Program-made: the position numbers and the translations under genes
Notes under the pieces: model-generated
What the model saw: only the letters and a program-made list of their open reading frames with translations
Database searches by the model: none
What the model was told of the DNA's origin: nothing
In this document: piece by piece, positions 58,533 through 60,898 of the stretch
Position numbering within the stretch: the stretch's first letter is position 1
Layout: the number at the start of each line of letters is the position of its first letter
Source of the DNA: Brevundimonas sp.
GTDB lineage: Bacteria; Pseudomonadota; Alphaproteobacteria; Caulobacterales; Caulobacteraceae
Direction: 5' to 3'
DNA length: 64,000 nucleotides
NCBI RefSeq assembly: GCF_016742135.1
Contig: NZ_JACVCG010000005.1
Span: 58,924 to 122,923 of the forward strand

Positions 58533-58907
58533 CTACCATTCGTTTCGCCCGTCGACATGCCGGATCGGCACGGCGGCCAGGTCCAGCCCCTCGAACAGCC
58601 GGGCATTGAGGACCACCCGGGCAGGCCGCACCTCGCCGTCATCCGTCGTCCAGGCCGGCACCTCGGCATGGACCGCGCAGCCACAGGTCGCGCAGTGGTA
58701 AAAGGTCATCATCCGGTCGCCCCACTCATAGGGCGTCAAGAGCGCGGGCGTGAGAGTGAGTTGAACCGCCGCAGGCGCGTAATATGCGGCCAAGGTTCCC
58801 CGCTTGGTGCAGGTGGTGCAGGTGCAGTGAGTGACGGTTTCGGGTGCTGCCGCCGCGAACCGCTGGGCCCCGCAGTGACAGCTGCCCCGCAGGAGCTCAC
58901 CGGTCAT
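58533..58907 (-). CDS. GFA (glutathione-dependent formaldehyde-activating) family protein
   Basis: ATG 58907 (MTGELLRGSCHCGAQRFAAAAP) gives 124 residues; the ORF-track start 72 codons upstream lies inside the DUF72 gene. The zinc ligands are in GSCHCG, THCTCTTCTKRG and YHCATCGCAVHAE, the normal GFA set. GFA proteins bind zinc and were named for Paracoccus Gfa; most members have no proven activity. The start overlaps the DUF72 stop by 4 nt, so the two genes are coupled. Confidence 0.92.
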   Translation of the reverse strand: MTGELLRGSCHCGAQRFAAAAPETVTHCTCTTCTKRGTLAAYYAPAAVQLTLTPALLTPYEWGDRMMTFYHCATCGCAVHAEVPAWTTDDGEVRPARVVLNARLFEGLDLAAVPIRHVDGRNEW

Positions 58908-59653
58908 TCCACGCGCTCGATCAGGGCCATGGCGGCCGCCGGATTCCGGACCTTGGCCCCGGCGATCATATAAGCGAACACATCGCCCCGCTTCGCCCAG
59001 CCCCGCAGGCGGTCTGCGGCGGCGTCGAGTTCGGCGGGCGACATGCCGGTCGGCTCGTCCTCGCGGCTCGACATCAGCCGGGCATAGGAAAAGTCTGCGG
59101 TCGGTTGATCGATGCGCGGCCATTCCGGCGCCTCATCATCCTCGGCATAGACGATGGCACAGCCGTATTTCGCCGCCAGATCATAGAATTCCTGGGCGTC
59201 GAAGCTGGGGTGCCGAACCTCCAGCGCATGACGCAGGCGAAGGCCGTCCTTCTCCTTCGGCAAGAGCTTCAGAAAGCCCTCGAAATCGACCGGATCGAAC
59301 TTCTTGGTCGCCATGAACTGCCAGTTGATCGGCCCCAGCCTGTCGCCCAGCGCCGTCAGGCCCTGATCCAGAAACCGGTCAAAGCTCTCCTGGCCCTCGG
59401 ACAGCACCTTGCGATTGGTGCAATAGCGGCTGGCCTTGACGGCAAAGACGAAACCGTCGGGCGTCTCGTCGCGCCACTTCATCCAGCTGTCGGGCTTGAA
59501 GGTCGAATAATAGGTGCCGTTGATCTCGATCGAGGTCAGCTTTCCGGCCGCGTATTCCAGCTCGCGCTTCTGGACCAGGCCTTCGGGATAGAAGACGCCC
59601 CGCCAGGGCTCATAGGTCCAGCCGCCGATGCCGATGTGGATGGGATTAGTCAT
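58904..59653 (-). CDS. DUF72 (YecE-like) family protein
   Basis: This 249-residue TIM-barrel-like protein starts MTNPIHIGIGGWTYEPWRGVFYPEGLVQKRELEYAAGKLTSIEINGTYYSTFKPDSW, the normal DUF72 N-terminus. Further matches are FAVKASRYCTNRKVLSEG, GPINWQFMATKKF, LRHALEVRHPSF and YARLMSS near the C-terminus. The function of the family is not known. Its ATG overlaps the stop codon of the upstream accessory gene (TAATG), so it is coupled to the small-gene locus upstream and to GFA downstream. Confidence 0.93.
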   Translation of the reverse strand: MTNPIHIGIGGWTYEPWRGVFYPEGLVQKRELEYAAGKLTSIEINGTYYSTFKPDSWMKWRDETPDGFVFAVKASRYCTNRKVLSEGQESFDRFLDQGLTALGDRLGPINWQFMATKKFDPVDFEGFLKLLPKEKDGLRLRHALEVRHPSFDAQEFYDLAAKYGCAIVYAEDDEAPEWPRIDQPTADFSYARLMSSREDEPTGMSPAELDAAADRLRGWAKRGDVFAYMIAGAKVRNPAAAMALIERVE

Positions 59654-60066
59654 TAACCTTCTGCCACCAAATCAAGCCACTTCGCTATTTTTTCCGCCTC
59701 AGACCTAGTAATGTCGTCGGGCACAACAAAACGGAAAGGCTTGTCGCGCTTAAGCACGAAAACCTGGACCCCGACTTCCAAATTTTCACTTTCTGGCAAT
59801 GGGTTAGGGCTCTCGGGCGATGGCGTCGGGCTTACCACACCCGGTGTAGGGGGCGGTACGGGTCGATTTAAGGCCTTTACAATACGCGAGGGTCGGCTCC
59901 GGCGGCCAGGCACGAATGTGCCATGACCAGCCGCTGCAAGGTCCTGCAGTGACGACACCACCTCATGGCGCGCCAGTTTGAGCCTCTTCTCTATGAGCTC
60001 CACCGGGACTTCATTTTCCCTCGTGGACCAAATGAAATCAGCGATTGCTTGAGTTGCATTATCCAT
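59653..60066 (-). CDS. Putative winged-helix protein of the accessory patch
   Basis: ATG 60066 (MDNATQAIADFIWSTRENEVPVELIEKRLKLARHEVVSSLQDLAAAGHGTFVPGRRSRPSRIVK) is chosen over the ORF-track start, which overlaps the upstream 50-codon gene. The N-terminal ~65 residues look like a winged helix-turn-helix, ending in a wing motif GRRxxPSR. A Pro/Ser-rich linker (~72-98) follows, then a short C-terminal domain: VQVFVLKRDKPFRFVVPDDITRSEAEKIAKWLDLVAEG. The product is 137 residues. The gene is visibly lower in GC than its surroundings. Its stop (TAATG) overlaps the DUF72 start. I do not recognise the family; DNA binding is an inference. Confidence 0.62.
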   Translation of the reverse strand: MDNATQAIADFIWSTRENEVPVELIEKRLKLARHEVVSSLQDLAAAGHGTFVPGRRSRPSRIVKALNRPVPPPTPGVVSPTPSPESPNPLPESENLEVGVQVFVLKRDKPFRFVVPDDITRSEAEKIAKWLDLVAEG

Positions 60067-60073
60067 AGGTTTC

Positions 60074-60226
60074 TTAGCCCTCAAGGCGGCTGGGATGCCC
60101 GCGACGCCCGATCTTGAAATCAGCGATTCCCTTGAACGCGATAGCTTGGAACATAGCAATGACGGCGGCGCGGGTGAACCCAGTATCCTTGACGGCTTCG
60201 TCGACGGTGTAAACTGTCTTGATCAT
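60074..60226 (-). CDS. 50-codon gene sharing the GRRxxPSR motif (not in the ORF track)
   Basis: ATG 60226 is preceded by AGGAGATAAGAG, a strong ribosome site. The protein reads MIKTVYTVDEAVKDTGFTRA through FKIGRRGHPSRLEG and ends with TAA at 60074, seven bases before the next gene. VDEAVKDTGFTRAAVIAMFQAI looks like a helix-turn-helix segment, and GRRGHPSR repeats the wing motif of the 137-codon neighbour (GRRSRPSR). It could be a mini regulator or a shortened relative of its neighbour. A plausible promoter precedes it. It is too short for the ORF track, hence not listed there. Confidence 0.62.
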   Translation of the reverse strand: MIKTVYTVDEAVKDTGFTRAAVIAMFQAIAFKGIADFKIGRRGHPSRLEG

Positions 60227-60268
60227 CTCTTATCTCCTGATTTTGGCGTAAGCGCCTCGAGCAGGACC

Positions 60269-60311
60269 CTTGTAGCAACCTTGTTTTGAGCCGTCAACAA
60301 CCTTGTACAAG
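60269..60311 (-). promoter_or_regulatory. Promoter with three helically phased ACAAGG repeats and a CTTGTACAAG palindrome
   Basis: On the minus strand there is TTGACG (60297-60292), a 17-bp spacer and TACAAG (60274-60269), a reasonable sigma-70-type promoter ~43 nt before the 50-codon gene. ACAAGG occurs three times, at plus-strand CCTTGT positions 60268, 60279 and 60301, i.e. 11 and 22 bp apart, one and two helical turns. The first repeat lies within the perfect palindrome CTTGTACAAG (60302-60311). The arrangement suggests a cooperative operator. Confidence 0.55.
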
Positions 60312-60316
60312 ACAGT

Positions 60317-60832
60317 TCAAGGTTTATTATTGGGACTGCCGCAACCATCTTCCTCGACCGGCAGGAGCCGCAACGGCGAGACGGCCCCGCCGCCCGCTTC
60401 GAGTCCGTTGGGAAAGCCGCTGGACAAAATCAGGACTGAGCTGGCATCTTCGCTGACTACCGCCCACAGACATTCGCCGCCGGCGGCATGGCAACCGGTC
60501 TCAGGGTCATTGATTCCACAGGTGATGACGGCTCATTCCGGGTTTTCTATCGACTTCGAACCGCTCGACGGCGACCGGCGTAAAGCGACCGTGGGTCGTC
60601 ACGAGACGCCCTTCAACATTGGATTCGAAGCTGGCCTCGCTGGCCCCACGGCCTCCAGCGGTCCGTCGAAGGCCTGAAGCGTCACGAGATCGCGCATGTG
60701 AGGTTCGGCGGCAGGATCGGACAGGACCACGCAACGTGGGGCGCCCCCGTTGCATGGCCGTAGTTAATGCCCCGCACAATGGTCGCAAGCGATGCCGAGA
60801 ACGGCGGGCTCGGGGATGTTCATGGTCGCCAT
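60317..60832 (-). pseudogene. Decayed gene with three in-frame stops and probable compensating indels
   Basis: The minus strand from ATG 60832 (AAGGAG seven bases upstream) reads MATMNIPEPAVLGIACDHCAGH, then TAA at codon 23, and continues in the same frame with CVVLSDPAAEPHMRDLVTLQAFDGPLEA. Further stops are at codons 78 and 100. From codon 101 the same frame reads on as VITCGINDPETGCHAAGGECLWAVVSEDASSVLIL to a final TGA at codon 172 (60317). Between ~codons 60 and 99 another frame (SFESNVEGRLVTTHGRFTPVAVERFEV) looks more protein-like, implying two compensating indels. The original family is not recognised; it was rich in Cys. A random reading of non-coding DNA is the alternative. Confidence 0.45.
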
Positions 60833-60898
60833 TGTGCGTCTCCTTCAAGGGAGGCGTCCGTGCCTCGGCAAACCTAGTCGAGACATGGCGCTGCGGGC

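Follow-up and report, generated by a model that had tools for sequence, protein, structure and literature searches.

AbiE-type operons are bicistronic and autoregulated, with one gene encoding a winged helix-turn-helix (wHTH) autorepressor and the partner gene a toxin. The locus described here, in a 64,000-nucleotide stretch of Brevundimonas DNA (the window), shares with them a two-gene operon with a wHTH, and presumably autorepression. It differs in that both of its genes encode wHTH relatives; PADLOC gave no match for either protein, and no toxin or defence gene was found in the operon, whose third cistron is a genus-wide DUF72 gene. RctA of rhizobial plasmids is another candidate comparison. 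MarR/ArsR-type regulators resemble the long protein of the locus in the predicted fold of residues 1-64 (structure comparison, best E about 0.01), but the window proteins have no Pfam or NCBIfam match and lack the MarR dimerisation helices. In Escherichia coli, three dimers of NanR (GntR family) bind (GGTATA)3 direct repeats cooperatively (PMC8012715). NanR serves as a working analogy only, by description: a winged-helix repressor with three protein units on three direct repeats. NanR is one large effector-binding protein, whereas the window has a pair of very small genes, YAAGG words spaced 11-22 bp apart and no known effector domain.

An earlier note on this DNA had described three ACAAGG repeats, a palindrome, two small open reading frames (ORFs) 7 nt apart and a TAATG junction with the DUF72 gene, all in a low-GC patch, and each of these is present where it was placed. 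The 50-codon ORF (60226->60074) and the 137-codon ORF (60066->59653) are separated by 7 nt, and at 59653 the final A of the long ORF's TAA stop is also the first base of the DUF72 ATG. The GC content is 53-59% over 59.65-60.4 kb and 61-70% around it. The genes and the surrounding features are as follows.

58904-59653, minus strand: DUF72 gene, present in 123 of the 131 genomes of the genus; its start overlaps the stop of the long gene
59653-60066, minus strand: long wHTH protein P0001, 137 aa; predicted wHTH (1-64), proline-rich linker, C-terminal domain (about 97-137)
60074-60226, minus strand: short wHTH protein P0002, 50 aa; HTH and wing only; found by a profile excluding it (E=3.7e-8)
59642-60357, no strand: insertion, approximate limits; 716 nt here, against 50 nt at this place in congener G083
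60358-60850, minus strand: decayed lipoprotein-type gene; a gene of this type adjoins DUF72 in several congeners

We consider it moderately likely that the locus is a horizontally acquired, self-contained regulatory cassette, whose wHTH pair binds phased YAAGG words cooperatively and shuts its own promoter. The cassette would comprise one promoter followed by two genes of an unannotated wHTH family, first a short member and then a long one. These proteins would read YAAGG words, CAAGG in this case, spaced by one or two helical turns, with the protomers side by side on one DNA face and binding cooperatively over the -35 and -10 elements. The bound proteins would occlude the promoter and turn off their own transcription, a local autorepression. 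The C-terminal domain of the long protein probably mediates self-association or partner contact, and the short protein probably binds beside or together with the long one. An autoregulated wHTH is an ordinary kind of system, but the family is unannotated. The earlier statement that no described system has this layout holds within the libraries and the limited literature searched, but not for the kind of system, which is common.

Insertion of the gene pair

At the sequence level, the promoter and the pair are shown to form an insertion of about 0.67 kb between DUF72 and the decayed lipoprotein gene. The pair is absent from 130 congeners, searched with the long protein and with DNA. In several congeners, the lipoprotein-type gene ends roughly 40-110 bp before DUF72. 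The four closest relatives lack the decayed gene as well, or have other DNA there. A cassette of about 1.2 kb, first inferred from these closest relatives, was cut to about 0.67 kb once the decayed gene was recognised. The closest relative, G084 (L020), carries a different insert of about 1 kb at the same place upstream of DUF72, and the spot is therefore variable. Conservation of the locus in relatives, which the earlier note had made a point of, thus fails within the genus, where no congener carries it, but the repeats are kept in distant family members.

The low GC content, the insertion in a single genome and the variable site, together with the plasmid location of relatives (one has integrases and a DndB gene nearby), may also indicate a remnant of a larger mobile element, concerned with immunity or transfer control, that no longer regulates anything useful to the host. 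We regard this as possible, if somewhat doubtful, since no damage is apparent in the two frames, the promoter or the operator. As to origin, it is compatible with the regulatory cassette proposed above.

A sparse family of small wHTH proteins

Direct searches with P0001 and P0002 gave no usable match in Pfam, PHROGs, NCBIfam, the PDB, plasmids, viral contigs or genome contigs, and a direct search of phages with P0001 gave nothing usable. Nearly all weak matches of P0001 in the genus and the order were dropped as proline-rich or low-complexity alignments. The profile searches that had been proposed led stepwise to an unannotated winged-HTH family that holds both proteins. Two finds came from weak matches of P0002: a tandem pair in G238, which belongs to a different family within the order, and protein P0005. 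The long member of the G238 pair led to hypothetical plasmid proteins of Rhizobium (E 4e-24), Roseomonas (1e-18) and Polymorphobacter (1e-8), and only marginally to a Variovorax plasmid protein (E 0.09). A family profile built from seven relatives, with both window proteins left out, recovered P0001 at E 1.4e-10 and P0002 at E 3.7e-8, and had no other match in the 64 kb. By these profile matches, P0001 and P0002 are shown to belong to a sparse, unannotated wHTH family with a GRRGxxSR wing motif.

The family ranges over Alphaproteobacteria and Variovorax plasmids. Members were found in 15 of 299 genomes of the order (one, in G139, being weak at 3.4e-4) and in 3 of 190 genomes of the class, the window's own genome included in both counts, and none was found in the phages and viral contigs searched. 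More members occur in G397, G313 and genus g92. Many genus g19 genomes (L096-L104) have a short solo member in which GGGG replaces the GRRG wing. The g92 members start at the same helix as P0001 and are closest to it in architecture. An N-terminal helix with LY...D was not treated as defining the family because P0001, P0002 and the g92 members lack it. The family now has a definition, relatives and a candidate DNA word; it is absent from Pfam, NCBIfam and PADLOC and at best touched by PHROGs.

The suggested helix-turn-helix character with a wing was borne out, in that the profile without the window proteins matches both, and an AF2 model gave a wHTH for P0001 only. P0001 and P0002 have the GRRxxPSR wing in common (GRRGHPSR in P0002). 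The AF2 model of P0001, which was aligned only with P0002, contained H3-14, E19-21, H22-29, H33-45, E49-52 and E61-64. The block pLDDT was 83-91 over residues 1-60, and the linker and C-terminus were of low confidence. Foldseek with this model returned MarR, ArsR and other generic wHTH folds (best E about 0.01), and residues 1-64 of P0001 are predicted to be a winged helix. Of the structure predictions suggested for each protein, that of P0002 gave less: its single-sequence model (no alignment) showed no wing. An identical 14-nt word, TGAAATCAGCGATT, lies at 60033-60046 and 60115-60128; it codes for IADF in each of the two small genes, at places that do not correspond.

The C-terminal domain of the long members has the pattern F-x-L-R...LPxDxTxxExxRLAxfhxxLP. 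A profile of this domain alone, built from other members, found P0001 at E=0.0012 among 4687 ORFs (best non-member 0.078), and it also found a Cro/C1-type HTH protein on a Polymorphobacter plasmid (3.8e-17). The domain is therefore a mobile module. Two loci, L073:5053-5445 (-) and L108:5313-6026 (+), show such fusions: the C-terminal domain of P0001 joined to a Cro/C1-type HTH, and a similar-looking end joined to an integrase-N-like domain in G621. The PHROG of unknown function phrog_2602 weakly matched the Rhizobium member in its C-terminal part (E 0.0018) and finds the G621 protein, whose integrase-N-like N-terminal domain differs; P0001 and P0002 gave no match to it.

The earlier note had raised the possibility that the 50-codon gene is a mini regulator or a truncated decoy of the neighbouring gene. 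The decoy reading was not upheld: the two are not closest relatives, and a recent truncated copy of P0001 was dropped as an origin of P0002 because each is nearer to other family members in pairwise scores and in the tree. The best pairwise scores were those of P0002 with P0005 (46%) and of P0001 with the Roseomonas protein (39%). The window pair was joined in 1% of bootstrap trees, in a tree that is poorly resolved with long branches. The tandem of G238 consists of a 92-aa short protein and then a 164-aa long protein, 3 nt apart and in the same order as in the window. The tandem recurs, but short-then-long pairs are known in two genomes only, the window's and G238.

P0001 might instead be the sole regulator, the 50-codon gene being a decaying relic minus its N-terminal helices that is expressed only as a leader. 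P0002 does lack the N-terminal helices that other short members keep, the missing wing in its model would fit, and a decayed gene lies next door. We nevertheless consider a relic rather unlikely, as P0002 keeps a strong Shine-Dalgarno, the GRRGHPSR wing and an open frame, and the G238 tandem has a full-length short protein of 92 aa. The 50-residue member would rank among the smallest wHTH-type regulators. We speculate further, with little expectation, that it is general in this family for a short and a long paralog to combine into a two-subunit repressor, in which a 50-residue protein without helix 1 would fill or tune alternate YAAGG sites on one DNA face.

Putative operator and promoter

Three ACAAGG hexamers precede the 50-codon gene on the minus strand, with start spacings of 22 and 11 bp. 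The features of this region are listed below.

60318-60322, plus strand: inverted YAAGG half-site (CAAGG on the plus strand), at the upstream edge of the operator
60302-60311, no strand: perfect palindrome CTTGTACAAG, alone not significant (9% of shuffles)
60301-60306, minus strand: ACAAGG site 1, just upstream of the -35; overlaps the palindrome CTTGTACAAG
60292-60297, minus strand: putative -35-like TTGACG
60279-60284, minus strand: ACAAGG site 2, in the promoter spacer
60269-60274, minus strand: putative -10-like TACAAG, with a 17-nt spacer to the -35; shares positions with site 3
60268-60273, minus strand: ACAAGG site 3, over the -10-like element
60234-60238, minus strand: Shine-Dalgarno AGGAG of the 50-aa gene, present in the sequence

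The promoter-like TTGACG-17-TACAAG (60297-60269), with a score of 9/12, lies inside the ACAAGG array. A strict sigma70 scan of the upstream region listed no promoter; it omits this one because its -10 does not end in T. To gauge chance, the 130-nt upstream region was subjected to dinucleotide shuffling. A 6-mer of any kind occurred three times within 45 bp in 0.16% of shuffles, and with helical phasing in 0.01% (1/10,000), and a 10-bp palindrome arose in 9%. A lone ACAAGG carries no meaning, given a total of 39 in the 64-kb window against 16 expected. Without mismatch, the 11-bp tandem ACAAGGN5ACAAGG occurs just once in the 2.6 Mb genome, which fits local autoregulation; forms with one mismatch occur no more often than a control pattern.

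A phased triple of direct YAAGG words with one- or two-turn spacing was found in 3 of 13 upstream regions. The words lie at -79, -57 and -46 in the window (spacings 22, 11; shuffle P 1e-4), at -98, -87 and -75 before the G238 pair (11, 12; P 8.5e-4), and at -73, -52 and -30 before the Rhizobium plasmid gene (21, 22; P 5e-5). Among all 5-mer patterns allowing no more than one two-fold degenerate position and containing >=2 G/C, YAAGG was the only pattern to reach 3 of the 13 upstreams; of 300 shuffled upstream sets, none reached 3 and one reached 2. YAAGG and the phasing tolerance were chosen after viewing the upstreams, so that the true significance is weaker than these figures. Patterns taken from the window alone recurred in 2 of the 5 nearest relatives and never in 2000 shuffles. 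Three of the six closest members have no triple: there are one or two sites in Roseomonas and in Polymorphobacter (in the latter, CCTTATAACCCCATAAGG over a -10-like element) and none in Variovorax. The upstream regions checked in G313, G397 and g92 have no YAAGG array. The pair and the spacing, for which a search in other genomes had been suggested, were thus recovered as a tandem in G238 and as phased words in G238 and Rhizobium, which with the window makes 3 of the 13 upstreams.

The cooperative phased operator that had been put forward is plausible because the same phased YAAGG triple precedes two distant relatives. A phased, presumably self-controlling operator is well supported, and its effect would be repression. 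Activation, with the YAAGG array recruiting RNA polymerase, seems improbable to us. The G238 sites all lie upstream of the -35 (-98 to -75, with the -35 at -61), and the window and Rhizobium each have one site immediately upstream of the -35, as activation would have it. However, the remaining sites of the window occupy the spacer and overlap the -10, and those of Rhizobium occupy the spacer and a position past the -10. Under cooperative autorepression, the number and spacing of YAAGG words may set cooperative binding, a candidate operator code that is testable.

The DUF72 gene

DUF72 is very improbable as the real regulatory target of the pair: stop and start overlap in TAATG, but DUF72 stands without the pair in congeners, and no DUF72 gene was recognised at five family loci (ORF listing) or at four plasmid loci (annotation). 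The coupling to DUF72 claimed earlier exists in the sequence but looks incidental functionally. Family members elsewhere adjoin cobT-, hrcA/grpE- or phosphoesterase-like genes (by eye) or plasmid genes, and together with the congeners this makes DUF72 most likely a bystander. It would be the third cistron by accident of insertion, and may now follow the cassette promoter by read-through.

DUF72 itself looks like an integration site. In G009 (L132-L133) and G052 (L135), 23-25 kb of DNA interrupts the gene at around residue 115, and one of the junctions carries a large gene that looks like a serine recombinase (read by eye). G053 has a 1.2 kb split, and similar breaks occur in G022, G075 and G003.
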